64,000 nucleotides of DNA from positions 1 to 64,000 of the forward strand of contig JAETOQ010000010.1 in assembly GCA_021771635.1 (NCBI GenBank), in the 5' to 3' direction. This stretch comes from Oscillospiraceae bacterium (GTDB taxonomy: Bacteria; Bacillota; Clostridia; Oscillospirales; Oscillospiraceae). The notes beneath the pieces were generated by a model. The model was not told the origin of the DNA and ran no database searches. It saw nothing but the letters and a program-made list of their open reading frames with translations. The position numbers and the translations under genes are program-made. Every line of letters starts with the position of its first letter. The first letter of the stretch is position 1. Below are positions 3,528-51,640 of this stretch, piece by piece.

Positions 3528-3597
3528 CGAATTTCTGTTCGATTTTCTCTTGACAGAAACGTTTGTTCGAGTTATACTGTGATCGAACAAAAGTTCT
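3528..3597 (+). promoter_or_regulatory. SOS-type promoter with three LexA-like boxes at 28-bp spacing
   Basis: TTGACA (3550-3555) and TATACT (3573-3578) are 17 bp apart. GAAACGTTTGTTCG (3556-3569) fills the spacer and is a full match, on the reverse strand, to the Gram-positive LexA/DinR consensus CGAACRNRYGTTYC. CGAACAAAAGTTCT (3584-3597) lies just after the -10 and contains the perfect dyad GAAC-N4-GTTC. A weaker CGAATTTCTGTTCG (3528-3541) lies upstream. All three begin exactly 28 bp apart, which argues for designed operators. LexA repression and DNA-damage induction of the downstream operon follow from this; they are inferred, not shown. Confidence 0.82.
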
Positions 3598-3606
3598 GAT
3601 ATAGTC

Positions 3607-3774
3607 GGCACACTTGAAAATCGGTAAATACCGATTTTCTGACAGCGGCAGAGCCGCTGTCGGGCGGCGCCCGTGTGCTGCCTATGAAGTCTGACGCAAG
3701 GCCGCAAAACGGCCTTGTGGGGTGAGATGTTCCCCCCCCCACAAGTTGAAAAGAAGTTTTTGCTTCTTTTCAAC
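3607..3774 (+). ncRNA. Structured 5' leader: cluster of perfect hairpins
   Basis: Between the promoter and the first gene lie five near-perfect inverted repeats: 3616-3639 (11-bp arms GAAAATCGGTA), 3641-3661 (9-bp arms GACAGCGGC), 3661-3673 (CGGGC/GCCCG), 3697-3717 (8-bp arms CAAGGCCG) and 3745-3774 (12-bp arms GTTGAAAAGAAG). The first three are enclosed by GGCACAC (3607-3613) and GTGTGCTGCC (3673-3682), suggesting a multibranch junction. TGTGGGG/CCCCACA (3716-3722 with 3737-3743) can also pair. None has a T-run, so they are not simple terminators. I recognise no known riboswitch class. The region may be a regulatory leader or a small RNA. Confidence 0.5.
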
Positions 3775-3801
3775 TGCGTCAACTATAAGGAGGACATTCT
3801 T

Positions 3802-3927
3802 ATGACTGGCTGGAGTTTCTTTTTCGTTTTAGTGGGCGTGGTATTTCTGACCGCCCAGCTGTTCCGCGTGATCGATGCCATTGAGCGCCCCAACCGGCAT
3901 CCCCGCCGCCGTGCCGTGGCCCGGTGA
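3802..3927 (+). CDS. 41-aa single-span membrane peptide, first gene of the LexA-box operon
   Basis: Start ATG at 3802 follows a strong AAGGAGGA (about 3787-3794). The peptide is one hydrophobic helix (WSFFFVLVGVVFLTAQLF, residues 4-21) followed by a basic tail ending HPRRRAVAR, so an N-out or membrane-inserted arrangement with the tail in the cytoplasm is likely. It resembles no family I can name. Its position directly behind a LexA-type promoter recalls known SOS-induced membrane peptides: the division inhibitor SidA of Caulobacter, TisB of E. coli, and the membrane-anchored YneA of Bacillus. The resemblance is in size and context, not sequence. The radical SAM gene starts 12 nt after its stop, so it may also serve as a translation-coupling leader. 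Confidence 0.7.
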   Translation: MTGWSFFFVLVGVVFLTAQLFRVIDAIERPNRHPRRRAVAR

Positions 3928-3939
3928 TCTGGTGCGCCC

Positions 3940-5208
3940 ATGGATGTCCTGGAAAAGCTGACCGTCCTGACGGACGCCGCAAAATATGACGCGGCCTGCA
4001 CCTCCAGCGGCGGCAGCCGCTCTGCCAGGAAGGGCTATATCGGCAACACCTCCTCTTCCGTTGCAGGGTGCTGCCACTCCTTCTCCGCCGACGGCCGGTG
4101 CGTGACTCTGCTGAAGGTCCTGCTGACCAACCACTGTGTATACGACTGCAAGTACTGCGTCAACCGCCGCAGCAACGACACGAAGCGGGCGGCTTTCACC
4201 CCGGAGGAGCTGGCGGACCTGACCATCAACTTTTACCGCCGGAATTATATCGAGGGTCTCTTTCTCTCCTCCGGCGTATTTCGCAGTCCGGACTACACCA
4301 CGGAACTGATGATCCGTGCCCTGCGGCTCCTGCGGGAGCAGTACCGCTTTAACGGATATATCCACGCCAAGGCTATCCCCGGCACCTCTCCGGAGCTTGT
4401 GGAACAGCTGGGACTGCTGGCGGACCGGTTGAGCGTCAACATTGAACTGCCGTCGGAGGCCGGACTGAAAACACTGGCTCCCGAGAAAACGAAGCAGGCC
4501 ATCCTAACGCCCATGCGGCAGATCCAGACACGGAACCAGCAGAACCAAGAGGAGTTGGTGAAATACCGCCACGCTCCCAAATTCGCCCCTGCCGGACAGA
4601 GTACCCAATTGATCGTGGGCGCCACCAGGGACACTGATTTACACATTCTGCGTCTGACGCAGGGATTATATGACCGCTACCATTTGAAACGTGTGTTCTA
4701 CTCCGCCTATGTTCCGGTGGTGGAGCACGCCCTGCTGCCCGCCAAGGATGTGAAGCCCCCGCTCCTGCGGGAGCACAGGCTGTACCAGGCGGACTGGCTG
4801 CTGCGGTTTTACGGGTTCCGGGCCGAGGAGCTTTTGGACGAGAGGAATCCGGACTTTGATCCCCGGGTAGACCCCAAGTGCAGCTGGGCCCTGGCCCATC
4901 TGGAATTTTTCCCGGTGGAGGTCAACACGGCGGACTATGAATCCCTTCTGCGGATCCCGGGCGTCGGCGTCACTTCCGCCCGGCGGATCCTGTCCGCCCG
5001 CAGGTCCGGCCGGCTCCACATCGATGACCTGCGGAAGCTGGGCGTTGTGATGAAGCGCGCCCAGTATTTTCTGACAGCCTCCGGAAAAGTGCCTGAAGGG
5101 CTCCGGTTCACCCAGGACAGTCTGCTGCGGGGACTGATCGCCGCGGAACTGCCCTCGCTTCCCCAGCAGGAGGCTGTGCAGCTGTCCCTATTTGACTCTG
5201 TGGGATAA
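3940..5208 (+). CDS. Putative DNA modification/repair radical SAM protein (TIGR03916-like)
   Basis: The 422-aa protein has the radical SAM iron-sulfur motif CVYDCKYC (Cys66, Cys70, Cys73), a TIM-barrel core with NIELPSEAGLKTLAPEK, and a C-terminal helix-hairpin-helix around residues 334-355 (RIPGVGVTSARRILSARR), a DNA-binding element. This layout fits the family described as radical SAM proteins paired with a second protein that is sometimes fused to uracil-DNA-glycosylase-like domains. That pairing is why DNA repair is suspected; the reaction is unknown. The partner gene lies 10 nt downstream. The start at 3940 has only a weak ribosome binding site, so coupling to the peptide upstream is likely. 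LexA-like boxes at the operon promoter independently support a DNA-damage role. Confidence 0.88.
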   Translation: MDVLEKLTVLTDAAKYDAACTSSGGSRSARKGYIGNTSSSVAGCCHSFSADGRCVTLLKVLLTNHCVYDCKYCVNRRSNDTKRAAFTPEELADLTINFYRRNYIEGLFLSSGVFRSPDYTTELMIRALRLLREQYRFNGYIHAKAIPGTSPELVEQLGLLADRLSVNIELPSEAGLKTLAPEKTKQAILTPMRQIQTRNQQNQEELVKYRHAPKFAPAGQSTQLIVGATRDTDLHILRLTQGLYDRYHLKRVFYSAYVPVVEHALLPAKDVKPPLLREHRLYQADWLLRFYGFRAEELLDERNPDFDPRVDPKCSWALAHLEFFPVEVNTADYESLLRIPGVGVTSARRILSARRSGRLHIDDLRKLGVVMKRAQYFLTASGKVPEGLRFTQDSLLRGLIAAELPSLPQQEAVQLSLFDSVG

Positions 5209-5218
5209 GGAGTTCTCC

Positions 5219-6076
5219 ATGGCAGAGATGGTTTATTATTATGACGGCAGCTTCGAGGGGTTCCTCTGCTGCATTTTCGACAGCTACGCAAACAAAGAAG
5301 TCCTCACCGCGATCTATCGCGATGAGGACTTTGTCCCTACGCTGTTTGCCTCCCGCGTCATTCAAACAAACCAGGACCATGCAAACCGTGTTTACAGGAA
5401 AGTTGTAAAGTGTTCTCCCTATACAGCTAGCCTTCTGCAAAAAGGTTTCCTCACCTGCCTGCCGGAAAAGGAATTATACATGTATCGGCTGGTGGTGAAG
5501 CTCCTGCGGGAGGGGCCGGGGTTTCTGCGGAATTTCTCTGACGAGACGCTGCATCCTGTGGCAAAGGCCGTTCAGCATCTGATGGGGGAAGCCCACCTGT
5601 TAAAGGGTTTTGTCCGCTTTTCCGAGCTGGGCGGTGTCCTGGGAAGCGAGATCGCACCGAAAAACCGGGTGCTTCCTGTTCTTCGGAGCCATTTCTGCGC
5701 CCGGTATCAAAACGAAAAATTTTTCATCTATGACCGCACGCATCAGGAGGCGCTGTTCTATGCTGCCGGAAAAGCCGTCATCCGTCCGCTGGTGGACTTT
5801 CAAATGGCCCCTCCGGACGAAACCGAGGCCACCTACCGCATCCTTTGGAAACGGTTTTACGACACCATCGCCATCAAGGAGCGCTATAACCCCAAATGCC
5901 GTATGACCAATATGCCAAAGCGGTATTGGAGCACCATGACGGAATTTCAGGGCGAGGAGCATTTCAAGGCGCAAAGCTCTCCCGCAGCCGGTTCAGTCCC
6001 CGGCGCTCCAGCCGGGATATCTGCACCTGGGAAACGCCCAGAACGCGGGCCGTCTGTTCCTGAGTCAGCCCTTTGA
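5219..6076 (+). CDS. Radical-SAM-linked putative DNA metabolism protein (TIGR03915-like)
   Basis: Start ATG at 5219 follows AAGGAG. The N-terminus VYYYDGSFEGFLCCIFDSY and the later KFFIYDRTHQEALFY, with WKRFYDTIAIKERYN and KRYW near residue 240, match the conserved protein that accompanies the radical SAM family above. No uracil-DNA glycosylase domain is attached, although such fusions are known. The conserved region seems to end near residue 245. The last 38 or so residues are Pro/Ala/Gly-rich, lie entirely inside the antisense of sigF (5964-6076), and look like read-through. Function is unknown; a role with its radical SAM partner in DNA is inferred from family pairing and the LexA-like promoter. 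Confidence 0.82.
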   Translation: MAEMVYYYDGSFEGFLCCIFDSYANKEVLTAIYRDEDFVPTLFASRVIQTNQDHANRVYRKVVKCSPYTASLLQKGFLTCLPEKELYMYRLVVKLLREGPGFLRNFSDETLHPVAKAVQHLMGEAHLLKGFVRFSELGGVLGSEIAPKNRVLPVLRSHFCARYQNEKFFIYDRTHQEALFYAAGKAVIRPLVDFQMAPPDETEATYRILWKRFYDTIAIKERYNPKCRMTNMPKRYWSTMTEFQGEEHFKAQSSPAAGSVPGAPAGISAPGKRPERGPSVPESAL

Positions 6077-6668
6077 AATATCGGAGCAAAATCGTCATCC
6101 GCTCCTTTTCCGGCAAACGGTCGATGGCCTCCCGCAGGGCGATGCGCTCCACCAATCCCTCTTCCGGAGCCTCGGTCCCCAGCATTCCCTCCAGCGTCAG
6201 GCCATCCGCTGTCTCCTGCTGCAAAGATTCCGGCGTGTCGGTGGCCAAGTCCGTCTGTGCGATCTCCTCCGGTGTCAGCCCTGTGCGCTCAGACAGCTCG
6301 GAAAGAGCGGGCTCCCGGCCCAGTTCATGCCGCATCTTCTCCCGAACACTGTAAAGTGTCTGTGCTTGCTCCCGTATGCTGCGGCCGACTTTTACCGCAC
6401 CGTCATCCCGTAAAAACCGGCGGATCTCCCCGGCGATCTTCGGAACAGCGTATGTGGAAAAGCAGGTGCCGTAATTGAAGTCAAAACCCTGGACCGCCTT
6501 CAAAAAGCCCAGGCACCCCAGCTGATACAGATCATCCGGCTCCACGCCCCGGCCGTAATAGCGCCGCACCACGCTCCAGATCAAGCCGTTGTTTTCGATC
6601 ACCGCCTGCTGGCAGGCGTCCCGATCTCCCTCCTGAGCCGCCCGCAGCAGTTCCAACGCAGCGCTCAT
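5964..6668 (-). CDS. sigF: RNA polymerase sporulation sigma factor SigF
   Basis: Forespore-specific sigma factor, 234 aa. Region 2 is seen in DLYQLGCLGFLKAV and TYAVPKIAGEIRRFLRDDG, and region 4 in the HTH TQEQTARVLGVSQVQISRLE. It is the third gene of spoIIAA-spoIIAB-sigF and overlaps spoIIAB by 4 bp (ATGA). SigF is held inactive by the anti-sigma factor SpoIIAB until SpoIIAA releases it in the forespore. The operon context distinguishes it from SigG. Its 3' end overlaps the convergent radical-SAM-linked gene by 113 bp, and no terminator is visible between them. Confidence 0.95.
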   Translation of the reverse strand: MSAALELLRAAQEGDRDACQQAVIENNGLIWSVVRRYYGRGVEPDDLYQLGCLGFLKAVQGFDFNYGTCFSTYAVPKIAGEIRRFLRDDGAVKVGRSIREQAQTLYSVREKMRHELGREPALSELSERTGLTPEEIAQTDLATDTPESLQQETADGLTLEGMLGTEAPEEGLVERIALREAIDRLPEKERMTILLRYFKGLTQEQTARVLGVSQVQISRLERRGLNRLRESFAP

Positions 6669-47527: not shown

Positions 47528-50500
47528 TCAAAACAGCGTGAGCTGGCTGGTCTCCGCCATTCCGGCAAAGGCCCCCAGGGCCTTCAGCTGTTCGATATGC
47601 GTCTTGGACAGCTTATTGCAGCACATGGCGAACTCCTCGATGGAGATGAACTGCTTTCCCTTCCGCTTCTCCACCGTGTCGATAGCCGCCGCCTCGCCCA
47701 GGCCGTGGACCGTGGTGAAGGGCGGCAGAAGGCCGTTCTCCGTCACGATGAACTTGGTGGCGTCAGACTTGTAGATGTCAATGGTGTCGAAGTGGAACCC
47801 CCGGAGGTAGAACTCATAGCACACCTCCAGGGTGGTCAGCAGGTTCTGCTCCACCGCCGTGGCGTCCTTGTTGTTCTCGATCTCCCGGATCTTCCGTTTC
47901 ACCGCGTCCTTTCCGGCGCAGCAGTACTCCGCGTCAAAGGCCTTGGCCCGGACGGAGAAGAACGTGGCGTAAAACGCCAGCGGCTCATGGACCTTGTACC
48001 AGGCGATGCGGAAAGCCATCATGACGTAAGCCACGGCATGGGCCTTGGGGAACAGGTAGCCGATCTTGGCCAGGGAATCGATGTACCACCCGGGGACGTC
48101 ATGCTCCTGCATGGCCTCCACCCAGCCCGGCTCAAAGCCGCCCTTTTTCACCTTGCCCTTTCGGACGGATTCCATGATCTTGAAGGACATCTTGGCGTCC
48201 AGGCCCTTGGAGATCAGGTACAGCATGATGTCGTCACGGCAGCCCACCGTCTCCAAAACGCTGGCGGTGCCGCTGACAATCAGCTCCCGGGCGTTGCCCA
48301 GCCACACGTCGGTGCCGTGGGAGAAGCCGGACAGCCGCACCAGGGTGTTGAAGTCCTTGGGCTGGGTGTCGATCAGCATCTGCCGGGTAAACCGGGTGTT
48401 GAACTCCGGAATGGCCACGGCGCCGGTGGGGCCTAAGATCTCGTCATTCTCATACCCCAGCACCTTGCTGGAGATGAAGATGGACATGGTGTCCGGGTCG
48501 TCCAGGGGAATGTCATGGGGGTCCACGCCGGTCAGATCCTGCATCATGCGGACCATGGTGGGGTCATCGTGTCCCAGCATGTCCAGCTTCAGGATATTGG
48601 CCTCCATGGAGTGGTATTCAAAATGGGTTGTGATGGTGTCGGAGTCATCGGCGTCCGCCGGGTGCTGGACGGGACAGAAATCCTCCATGTCCTTGTCATC
48701 CGGAACCACCACCAGGCCGCCGGGGTGCTGGCCGGTGGTGCGCCGGACGCCAACGCAGCCGGTGGCAAGGCGCTTTTTCTCGGCATTGCCCACCTCCATG
48801 CCGTTCTCCTCCAGGTATTTCAGGACAAAGCCGAAGGCGGTCTTGTCCGCCAGGGTGCCGATGGTGCCCGCCCGAAACACCTGTGTCTCGCCGAACATCT
48901 CGATGGCATGGCGGTGGGCCCGGGCCTGGTACTCACCGGAGAAGTTCAGATCGATATCCGGCACCTTGCCGCCGCCGAAGCCCAGGAAGGTCTCAAAGGG
49001 GATGTCAAAGCCGTCTTTGACATACTTCGTGCCGCAGACGGGACACACCTTGTCCGGCATATCTGCGCCGCAGCCGTAGGAGCCGTCGGTGATGAACTCG
49101 CTGCTGCGGCACTTGGGGCAGCGGTAATGGGGCGGCAGGGAGTTGACCTCCGTGATGCCGGACATATAGGCCACCAGGGACGAGCCCACGGAGCCACGGG
49201 AGCCCACCAGGTAGCCGTTTTCCAGGGACCGCTGCACCAGCTTCTGGGCGGACATGTACACCACGTCGTACTTGCCCAGGATGCCGCCCAGCTCCACATT
49301 CAGACGGTCCACGATCAGCTGGGGCGGGTCCTCACCGTAGAGCCGGTGGACCTTCTCCCACACCAGGCGATTCAGGTCCTCCTCGGAGTTCTCCAGCCGG
49401 GGTGGGAACAGCTCACTGGGCAGCAGCTCAAAGGTCTCCACCTGGTCGGCCACCAGCCGGGTGTTGGCCACCACCACCTCATAGGCCTTCTCCTCCCCCA
49501 GATAGCTGAACTCCTTCAGCATCTCGTCGGTGGTCTTGAAGTAGATGGGCAGGGACTCGTTGGCGTCCGGGAACTTTTTGGAGGCCAGCAGGATATGGCG
49601 GTACACCTCGTCCTCCGGCTCCTGGAAATGCACGTCGCCGGTGGCGCACACCGGCTTGCCCAGCTCCTCGCCCAGGCGGATGATGGTGCGGTTGAACTCC
49701 TTCAGCTCCTCCACGGACTGCACGTCGCCGTTTCGCAGCATGAACATGTTGTTGCACAGGGGCTGGATCTCCAAATAGTCGTAGAAGGACGCGATGCGCT
49801 TCAGCTCGTCCCAGTCCTTGTGGTCCGCCACGGCCCGGAACAGCTCGCCCGCCTCGCAGGCGGCGCCCACGATGATGCCCTCCCTGTGCTCATTGAGCAA
49901 ACTCTTGGGGATGGTGGGCACCCGCTTGAAGTACTTCAGGTTGGAGGCGGAGATCATCTGGTACAGGTTCTTCAAGCCCACCTTGTTCCGCGCCAGCAGG
50001 ATGATGTGCTTGGGAAAGCGGTTGGTCTTGCTGCCCAGGGGCCGCAGTTTCTCCATCTCCGGGTTGACAGCCTGGAGCGTGTGGATCCCCCGCTCATGGA
50101 GCATCTTCCAGAAGGGGATCAGCATATAGCCCACCGTGGCGGCGTCATCGCTGGCCCGGTGGTGGTTGAAGGCGGGCAGGTCCAAATGCTCCGCCACGAT
50201 GTCCAGCTTGTATTTGTGCAGGTCCGGCAGCAGGTTCTGCGCCAGGATCAGGGAGTCCACATAGGTGGGATGGAACTCCAGCCCCACCTCTTTGCACCCC
50301 GCCCGGATGAAGCTGATGTCGAACTCCGCGTTGTGGGCCGCCAGGGGGCGGCCGTTGACGAACTTCAGAAACTCCGTCAGGGCCTCTTTCAAAGAAGGAG
50401 CGTTCTTCAGCATCTCGTCGGTGATGCCCGTCAGGCCGATGATCTCCGGTGTCAGGCGGCGGTTGGGGTTGACAAAGGTCTGGAACCGCTCCGTGATCTC

Positions 50501-51520
50501 ACCGTTTTTCAGCACCACCGCGCCGATCTCCGTGATGGTCTCCCGGTCCACCTTCAAGCCGGTGGTCTCGATGTCAAAGCAGACGAATTCGTCGTCCAGG
50601 GAGCAGTCCAGGGAGCCGTGGACCACCACCCGGTCGTCGATGTTGTTGACGAAATACCCCTCCACACCGTAGAGGATCTTGATCTTGTCCCCGGCGGCGT
50701 GCCAGGCGTCCGGGAAAGACTGGGCCACACCGTGGTCCGTGATGGCGATGGCGGGGTGCCCCCAGCGGATGGCCTGCTGGATGACCGACTTCGTGTCCGT
50801 CAGGGCGTCCATATTGCTCATGCGGGTATGTAAATGCAGCTCCACCCGCTTTACCGGGGCGGTGTCCTCCCGGCCCTTATGCTCCACCACGTTGATATGG
50901 TAGGGGTTGAGCTGGATGTCCTTGCCGTCCCAGGTGGGCTCCATCTTGCCCTGGACCCGGAGCCACATGCCGGGCTTCACGGCGCTCTCCAGGGCCTGGG
51001 CCTCCTTGGCGGTCAGGTTCTTCTGGACCGTCACGGAGTTAGTATAATCCGTCATGTCAAAACTCAGGCGCCACATGCCGGGCCGCCGTGTCTCCCGGCA
51101 CTCAAAGGCAAAGACCTTGCCCTCCACCGTGGCATTGCCCATCTTCAGGTTCAGATCCTTCATGGGGCCGGGCTTTGCCTTGATGGGGTTGCCCATCAGC
51201 ACCTTGCCCGGCGCCGGCTTGCCGGCCTTGCTCCCAGCGGACGCGGCGGGGGCCGGAGCGGCGGACCGGGAGGCCTCCTGGGGCTTGCAGGTGATGTCCA
51301 TGTCCACCTTTGTGAAGCCGTAGACCGACCGGATCATGTCCTGGATATCCTGAAGATCCTTCTCCGACAACGGGAATTTGACCAGCAGGCGCAGACTCAT
51401 GGTCATGGCCCCCTGGTCGATGCAGGCCCCCGACAGCACGGCGCCCGCCAGCTTCAGCCGCAGCTCGCCCGAGAGCTGCAGCTCTGTGAACATTTCAAAA
51501 AACGGGATATCTTTTGACAT
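47528..51520 (-). CDS. polC: DNA polymerase III alpha subunit, PolC type
   Basis: 1330 aa, somewhat shorter than the roughly 1440 of Bacillus PolC. In order: an N-terminal domain, an OB fold around 125-215, PHP beginning VELHLHTRMSNMD (about 227), an inserted DnaQ-like exonuclease with CFDIETTG (about 314-321), the rest of PHP, a zinc-binding CPKCRSSEF...CPVCGTKY segment, and the polymerase core with PDIDLNFSGEYQ. A low-complexity Ala/Pro linker (about 83-105) follows the N-terminal domain. The main replicative polymerase of low-GC-type Firmicutes. Last gene of the pyrH-to-polC string, 120 bp after ispG. Confidence 0.97.
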   Translation of the reverse strand: MSKDIPFFEMFTELQLSGELRLKLAGAVLSGACIDQGAMTMSLRLLVKFPLSEKDLQDIQDMIRSVYGFTKVDMDITCKPQEASRSAAPAPAASAGSKAGKPAPGKVLMGNPIKAKPGPMKDLNLKMGNATVEGKVFAFECRETRRPGMWRLSFDMTDYTNSVTVQKNLTAKEAQALESAVKPGMWLRVQGKMEPTWDGKDIQLNPYHINVVEHKGREDTAPVKRVELHLHTRMSNMDALTDTKSVIQQAIRWGHPAIAITDHGVAQSFPDAWHAAGDKIKILYGVEGYFVNNIDDRVVVHGSLDCSLDDEFVCFDIETTGLKVDRETITEIGAVVLKNGEITERFQTFVNPNRRLTPEIIGLTGITDEMLKNAPSLKEALTEFLKFVNGRPLAAHNAEFDISFIRAGCKEVGLEFHPTYVDSLILAQNLLPDLHKYKLDIVAEHLDLPAFNHHRASDDAATVGYMLIPFWKMLHERGIHTLQAVNPEMEKLRPLGSKTNRFPKHIILLARNKVGLKNLYQMISASNLKYFKRVPTIPKSLLNEHREGIIVGAACEAGELFRAVADHKDWDELKRIASFYDYLEIQPLCNNMFMLRNGDVQSVEELKEFNRTIIRLGEELGKPVCATGDVHFQEPEDEVYRHILLASKKFPDANESLPIYFKTTDEMLKEFSYLGEEKAYEVVVANTRLVADQVETFELLPSELFPPRLENSEEDLNRLVWEKVHRLYGEDPPQLIVDRLNVELGGILGKYDVVYMSAQKLVQRSLENGYLVGSRGSVGSSLVAYMSGITEVNSLPPHYRCPKCRSSEFITDGSYGCGADMPDKVCPVCGTKYVKDGFDIPFETFLGFGGGKVPDIDLNFSGEYQARAHRHAIEMFGETQVFRAGTIGTLADKTAFGFVLKYLEENGMEVGNAEKKRLATGCVGVRRTTGQHPGGLVVVPDDKDMEDFCPVQHPADADDSDTITTHFEYHSMEANILKLDMLGHDDPTMVRMMQDLTGVDPHDIPLDDPDTMSIFISSKVLGYENDEILGPTGAVAIPEFNTRFTRQMLIDTQPKDFNTLVRLSGFSHGTDVWLGNARELIVSGTASVLETVGCRDDIMLYLISKGLDAKMSFKIMESVRKGKVKKGGFEPGWVEAMQEHDVPGWYIDSLAKIGYLFPKAHAVAYVMMAFRIAWYKVHEPLAFYATFFSVRAKAFDAEYCCAGKDAVKRKIREIENNKDATAVEQNLLTTLEVCYEFYLRGFHFDTIDIYKSDATKFIVTENGLLPPFTTVHGLGEAAAIDTVEKRKGKQFISIEEFAMCCNKLSKTHIEQLKALGAFAGMAETSQLTLF

Positions 51521-51640
51521 GGCTTCCTCTCTTTGAAATCAGGAAATAGAAATGAGGAATTTCGGTGTCCCTCTTGTCCAAGCAGGTCTGGATTCCTCTC
51601 GCCGCAAAAGGAACGCCGCAATTCCTAATTTTTCATTTTC

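Follow-up and report, generated by a model that had tools for sequence, protein, structure and literature searches.

A putative SOS operon of an Oscillospiraceae bacterium: a conserved membrane peptide, a radical S-adenosylmethionine protein with a clamp-type tail and its DUF4130 partner

SOS control of the gene pair TIGR03916/TIGR03915, which encodes a radical S-adenosylmethionine (SAM) protein and its partner, is already in print and is not new as an idea. The CAC3343-CAC3344 operon of Clostridium acetobutylicum is a predicted LexA target, and the available text of that report mentions neither a membrane peptide nor a ladder of three boxes (PMC3828012). The COG1573-COG4277 operon, likewise a radical SAM/helix-hairpin-helix (HHH) gene with a partner of the uracil-DNA glycosylase (UDG)/DUF4130 type, is reported to be SOS-controlled in Bacteroidetes and, by citation, also in Verrucomicrobia and Alphaproteobacteria (PMC8565304). 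Here, we analyzed a window of 64,000 nucleotides from an Oscillospiraceae bacterium (contig JAETOQ010000010.1), in which LexA-type boxes precede the genes for a 41-aa membrane peptide, a TIGR03916 protein and its TIGR03915 partner. Unlike this locus, the COG1573-COG4277 operon has a partner fused to a UDG domain and other LexA motifs, and no peptide is mentioned in the accessible part of the report (PMC8565304). An earlier note, made from the sequence of the window alone, had held that the pair is suspected of DNA modification or repair only because some partners are fused to UDG-like domains. The "only" is outdated, judged from the available parts of the two reports (PMC3828012; PMC8565304), while the fusion itself is real: the Leisingera partner joins TIGR03915 (10-237) to UdgX (239-470). 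As set out below, comparison with related sequences makes it very likely that the operon of the window is under direct SOS control.

The three LexA-like boxes that the earlier note had described, one of them in the promoter spacer and one just after the -10 hexamer, were confirmed from the sequence (Table 1). Their steps are exactly 28 bp, and box 3 begins 5 bases past the -10 hexamer. The number of such sites is not remarkable: the core GAAC-N4-GTTC occurs with at most one mismatch at 15 sites of the window against a shuffle mean of 22.9, and a plain two-mismatch search gave 7 matches where 13.4 were expected. Since box number alone is not significant, the case rests on spacing, promoter placement and comparative data. 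The window holds one triple of core sites at 28+28 bp, which was found in none of 20 dinucleotide shuffles; any three core sites within 120 bp occurred in one of 20 further shuffles. Box 1 is present at the equivalent position in most peptide-bearing relatives, and the -35 hexamer, box 2 and the -10 hexamer are conserved together in 59 loci, which were found by a pattern built on the -35 hexamer.

We then compared the upstream regions of orthologous operons. Among 150 genomes of the family, 52 have a radical SAM gene that passes the cut-off; together with two below-cut-off copies this gave 54 loci. In each, the search extended up to 250 bases from this gene and, for the window locus, up to 450. 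The core was found with at most one mismatch at 44/54 loci and exactly at 24/54, whereas 200 dinucleotide shuffles gave means of 4.5 (maximum 12) and 0.2 (maximum 2), respectively, and a control stretch inside the genes gave 10 and 0. TIGR03916 was over its cut-off in 147 of the 391 genomes of the class searched. The best-scoring 30 of these 147 loci, from 14 families, carry a box in 29 cases and an exact one in 11, against at most 6 and 1 in two-base-block shuffles. Such a box also lies within 150 bases of 15/30 lexA loci of the family, and the lexA gene of one congener (G082) has GGAACAAATGTTTG upstream. The proposal of direct SOS control is thus strongly supported, both by the conservation of the boxes upstream of orthologues and by their occurrence at the relatives' lexA genes. 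Outside the Clostridia, where other LexA motifs are expected, no box of the GAAC-N4-GTTC type was found at the loci of Bacteroides, Acinetobacter and Leisingera and one weak box in Spirosoma. Two single loci may be recorded here. Upstream of the radical SAM gene of L029, a perfect 10-6-10 palindrome, AAACATGACA-N6-TGTCATGTTT, lies at the promoter, which has no LexA-type box. At L227, another small hydrophobic open reading frame (ORF) lies between a perfect LexA-type core and a gene that, judged by eye, resembles DNA polymerase I.

The peptide is, by sequence comparison, a conserved family under purifying selection. A profile built from seven peptides matched 43 of 300 family genomes at E <=0.1. 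The strong matches (E <=2.2e-9) numbered 19 in 18 genomes; 18 of them adjoin a radical SAM gene, and the remaining one (G290, L253) does not. Independently of the profile, we scanned the genome collection with the promoter pattern TTGACA-N3-AC-N3-TGTTCGA-N-TTA-N-AAT. This gave 59 loci, 53 with a peptide and six with something else. The radical SAM gene follows in 52 of the 53, the record of the last ending first, and the partner is present in 39, the records of the other 13 ending before it. The 53 complete peptides are 34-75 aa long, and all of them contain a hydrophobic stretch of 17 residues (mean Kyte-Doolittle value 1.7-2.4). The part preceding this stretch carries no net charge and the part following it +1 to +8, a pattern that suggests an N-out/C-in orientation. 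Conservation is seen at a glycine within the span and in an LMRLIDxLDxP-like region after it. For nine disjoint pairs with a radical SAM identity of at least 90% omega was 0.23, and the three pair sets chosen by radical SAM identity gave 0.23, 0.26 and 0.28. Taking all pairs with a proportion of synonymous differences (pS) of 0.05-0.6, the median omega was 0.67, and 24 pooled disjoint pairs gave a pN/pS of 0.62, with many pairs saturated. A value of 0.14 was set aside as biased, because its pairs had been picked by low peptide divergence. Based on the profile matches, the promoter-pattern loci, the conservation and omega, we rejected the possibility of a chance ORF.

In scans of seven members against known families, NCBIfam gave no match at E 1, and the best values were 0.13 for Pfam and 0.048 for PHROGs. 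In a radical SAM tree with 68 rows, the distribution of the peptide requires three changes, consistent with a single gain plus two losses; the deep node is weakly supported. The peptide had been proposed as the arm of a damage checkpoint. The part of this claim that stands is a real, conserved family tied to the operon (18/19 strong matches; omega 0.23); as to its role, we infer that it most likely restrains growth or division. Look-alikes of the peptide elsewhere were read at 15 places. They are not taken as SOS genes, because in 13 of the 15 the upstream sequence, read for up to 250 bases, contains no box when one mismatch is allowed. At four look-alike loci (L244, L245, L250, L257), which like L253 lie outside SOS operons, the preceding gene has a match to the end of phrog_434, a family of phage RecE-like exonucleases.

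Peptide loci differ from the others in promoter and translation start. We defined a ladder as three rungs at steps of 26-30 bp with up to 2 core mismatches. It was present in 7/7 peptide loci but in 0/45 peptide-less loci among the 52 over-cut-off family loci, and in none of 1400 shuffles of the seven peptide promoters. The radical SAM start lies -22 to +11 nt from the peptide stop. Anti-Shine-Dalgarno pairing of -6 kcal or lower at this start was observed in only 10/52 peptide loci, compared to 38/45 peptide-less and 29/30 class loci. A strong ribosome site is found at the peptide start in 50/52 relatives, the starts having been chosen partly by such a site. Since most radical SAM genes that follow a peptide gene have no ribosome site of their own, translation of the two looks coupled.

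The peptide, the radical SAM protein with its CxxxCxxC motif and HHH (matching below the Pfam cut-off) and the partner were all recovered as the earlier note had assigned them. The radical SAM protein scores 656.6 bits, well over the curated TIGR03916 cut-off of 343.5. Its three N-terminal cysteines could possibly bind an auxiliary iron-sulfur cluster. LipA and MiaB carry such a cluster. The protein ends in what looks like a beta-clamp-binding motif. The pattern Q[LIMVFT]S[LIMFV][FW] was found within the last 60 residues of 72/82 radical SAM proteins, a count for which the pattern was chosen after looking at the sequences and from which two paralogues (the second copies of G002 and G108), both without the motif, are left out. 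Nine of the other ten proteins have QLTLF, QLRMF, QLSFL or QISIL, and one (G008) has no motif. Outside this C-terminal stretch, the same proteins show the pattern once in 30,915 residues. QLSLF itself is also present in Pusillibacter, Leisingera, Spirosoma and Lachnospira. Read by eye, the Acinetobacter protein ends in QLSLGF and that of Bacteroides has QLLLDF, both resembling the six-residue form of the clamp motif. Only two window ORFs of at least 120 codons contain Q[LIM][SDTN]LF, namely the radical SAM protein and PolC. The available text of a published study gives QLSLF as the full consensus beta-binding sequence, usually C-terminal (PMC4549789). The extreme C terminus of the radical SAM protein varies between sequences, and in the predicted model residues 409-422 have a predicted local distance difference test (pLDDT) value under 50. 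The mean pLDDT of this model is 73.2, with a poor region at 15-60. Its fold matches are HydE, HydG, MiaB and PFL-activase with template modeling (TM) scores of about 0.3-0.4, which indicates the radical SAM class but not the substrate.

The partner scores 208.9 bits for TIGR03915 (cut-off 112.25) and 154.5 for DUF4130 (cut-off 27); it has a TIGR03915 match only and no UDG domain (UdgX/TIGR03914). According to the accessible part of one report, DUF4130 is a predicted mutagenesis-related enzyme (PMC3765255). The AlphaFold model of the partner has a mean pLDDT of 79.6. Its best Foldseek match, a PAP phosphatase (E 3.8e-4, TM 0.38, root-mean-square deviation 11.4), and the others, mostly DHH-type phosphodiesterases and RecJ, were too weak to use.

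From the boxes, the operon, the peptide family, the missing ribosome site and the C-terminal motif, all seen by sequence comparison, we infer that the operon most likely makes a radical SAM repair enzyme, induced by damage and recruited by the clamp, together with a growth- or division-restraining membrane peptide. We give this reading a probability of roughly 0.55. In the undamaged cell, LexA would sit on its three operators, upstream of the -35 hexamer, in the spacer and at the transcription start, and would tightly shut a near-consensus promoter, which RecA-driven LexA cleavage would open. Ribosomes would load at the strong site of the peptide and continue to the radical SAM gene, mostly without a good site of its own. 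The predicted clamp-binding motif, together with the HHH, may hold the radical SAM protein at newly copied or gapped DNA. There it might act by radical chemistry on a base that is damaged or modified, after which the DUF4130 partner would take over; in other bacteria, this partner carries a fused uracil-DNA-binding domain, UdgX. Meanwhile, the peptide would insert N-out/C-in and most likely restrain division or membrane energization during repair. More tentatively, and as less likely than not, we propose that the whole could represent an SOS module of a new kind. In it, a radical SAM DNA enzyme tethered to the clamp and bearing an auxiliary iron-sulfur cluster would be translationally coupled to a peptide of a new family. 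The peptide would act as a brake on division or membrane energy scaled to the amount of enzyme made, keeping brake and repair in step.

SOS control and the repair pair would also stand if the peptide were a translational leader only, its ORF delivering ribosomes and its product being idle. The short gaps, and the poor ribosome site from which the radical SAM gene would start, fit such a leader. But an omega of 0.23-0.28 in three pair sets, a hydrophobic span in every complete peptide, preceded by no net charge and followed by a positive tail, and the fixed L-M-R-L-I-D-x-L-D-x-P region all speak against it, and close peptide-less relatives simply have a ribosome site. We consider an idle product distinctly unlikely. 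A membrane-active toxin of the TisB/DinQ type, unrelated in function to the pair and placed under three boxes because leakage is harmful, is in our judgment unlikely. It would account for the size of the peptide and its one span, for its control by LexA through operators that overlap like those described in the available text on DinQ (PMC3567139), for the confinement of the ladder to peptide loci and for the single box of two peptide-losing lineages (G071, G086, G122, G029). However, no antisense RNA was seen, no search having been aimed at one, the peptide matched no family in Pfam, NCBIfam or PHROGs, and its constant association with the pair points to a task in common.

Several observations weigh against the reading of a damage-induced repair operon with a restraining peptide. 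Ten of the 54 family loci have no box. In four of them (G010, G003, G047, G035), a gene with helix-turn-helix (HTH) and S24 domains ends 6-29 bases before the radical SAM gene, so that, judged by these domains, a different repressor of the damage type is found in place of the LexA box, an arrangement that speaks for the reading rather than against it; in the other six, no S24 gene was found either. No lexA match (TIGR00498 or PF01726) was obtained in the draft genome of the window, which is 94.7% complete (2.8 Mb, 170 contigs). Two sub-branches of the clade lost the peptide yet kept the pair. Among the promoter-selected peptide loci, the full ladder is present in only 40/53 at up to 2 core mismatches and three sites with at most one mismatch in only 34/53; on this count, the ladder is typical of peptide loci, not universal. 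The HHH_3 match reaches 24.1 bits, under the Pfam cut-off of 27, and HHH is likewise below its cut-off. The structure search for the partner gave no usable fold or chemistry, and the choice of pattern and sample for the clamp-motif count, given above, belongs here as well.

The missing lexA gene and the HTH-S24 genes at the four loci could also mean that an S24-type repressor other than LexA reads the boxes and that the species of the window lost lexA. We regard this as very improbable. lexA is over the cut-off in 16/18 peptide-bearing genomes, including 5/5 other congeners searched, and G082 carries the box upstream of its own lexA as described. The draft is in 170 contigs, and only two weak S24 matches were found in this genome. 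The simplest reading of the missing gene is an assembly gap.

Between promoter and ribosome site, the operon of the window contains an interspersed repeat (Table 1) with at least 26 long copies in the same genome (26 of 42 candidates scored; 84-100% identity) and a strong RNA fold (z = -10.95). Partial matches were found in 5/30 other congeners, and the repeat is not present at the loci of the relatives compared. A riboswitch or attenuator was rejected, as the leader is a repeat of this copy number and has no Rfam match at the gathering score. The gene order of the operon is the same in Pusillibacter faecalis pMM59_01, where the peptide is annotated as hypothetical protein. A sigma-F-like sporulation gene (5964-6668, minus strand) overlaps the 3' end of the partner gene tail to tail, again in the same order in P. 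faecalis.

Table 1. Coordinates of the operon, its promoter elements and related features in the window
Feature	Positions	Strand	Placement and basis
LexA-type box 1, CGAATTTCTGTTCG	3528-3541		Upstream of -35; sequence and motif search
-35 hexamer TTGACA	3550-3555	+	Sequence
LexA-type box 2, GAAACGTTTGTTCG	3556-3569		Inside 17-bp promoter spacer; sequence and motif search, also seen in relatives
-10 hexamer TATACT	3573-3578	+	17-bp spacer from -35
LexA-type box 3, CGAACAAAAGTTCT	3584-3597		Over expected transcription start; sequence and motif search
Interspersed, strongly folding repeat, ~190 nt	3597-3788	+	Between promoter and ribosome site
Shine-Dalgarno AAGGAGG of peptide	3787-3793	+	8 nt before ATG
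41-aa single-span membrane peptide, new family	3802-3927	+	ORF, profile search, conservation
Radical SAM protein, TIGR03916 (rSAM_link_UDG; COG4277-type)	3940-5208	+	E 1.6e-197
N-terminal cysteines C20, C45, C54	3997-4101	+	88/90 sequences; lacking only in two below-cut-off paralogues
Radical SAM motif C66-x3-C70-x2-C73	4135-4158	+	Kept in 90/90 aligned sequences
HHH region, residues 326-356	4915-5007	+	HHH_3 E 4.1e-5, HHH E 6.1e-5
C-terminal QLSLF, beta-clamp-binding-type motif	5179-5193	+	Sequence
Partner, TIGR03915 / DUF4130	5219-6076	+	E 9.1e-62 / E 2.6e-45
PolC, ending QLTLF	47531-51538	-	Window ORF

The TIGR03916/TIGR03915 pair is widespread, and its chemistry is not described in the literature we examined. 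The conserved boxes and the clamp-type tail turn suspected repair into testable predictions, namely DnaN binding, damage induction and action at forks, and the peptide would add, for gut Oscillospiraceae, a family of SOS-controlled membrane proteins that has no name yet. For this family, the literature searched, which mostly excluded subscription journals and preprints, offered no mention of peptide, ladder, coupling or clamp motif. Relative to that literature, the peptide family, the ladder as a mark of peptide loci, the apparent coupling and the clamp-type tail appear to be new.

TisB of E. coli is a tiny LexA-controlled single-span inner-membrane peptide. DinQ of E. coli is another, according to the available text (PMC3567139). 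Both differ from the window peptide in being antisense-controlled type I toxins outside repair operons, and neither gave a sequence family match to it. SidA of Caulobacter, YneA of Bacillus and SosA of Staphylococcus are small single-span SOS-induced membrane division inhibitors; no sequence relation to the window peptide tested positive, and none of the three is known to head a radical SAM operon. For the enzyme, one of the closest known systems is SplB, the spore photoproduct lyase, a radical SAM DNA repair enzyme. It was not among the NCBIfam matches at E 0.01, and no direct comparison was made. SplB is SOS-controlled in some species, as far as the accessible part of the report tells (PMC8565304). 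It belongs to another family model, and the window protein differs from it by three extra N-terminal cysteines, the HHH and the clamp-type tail.

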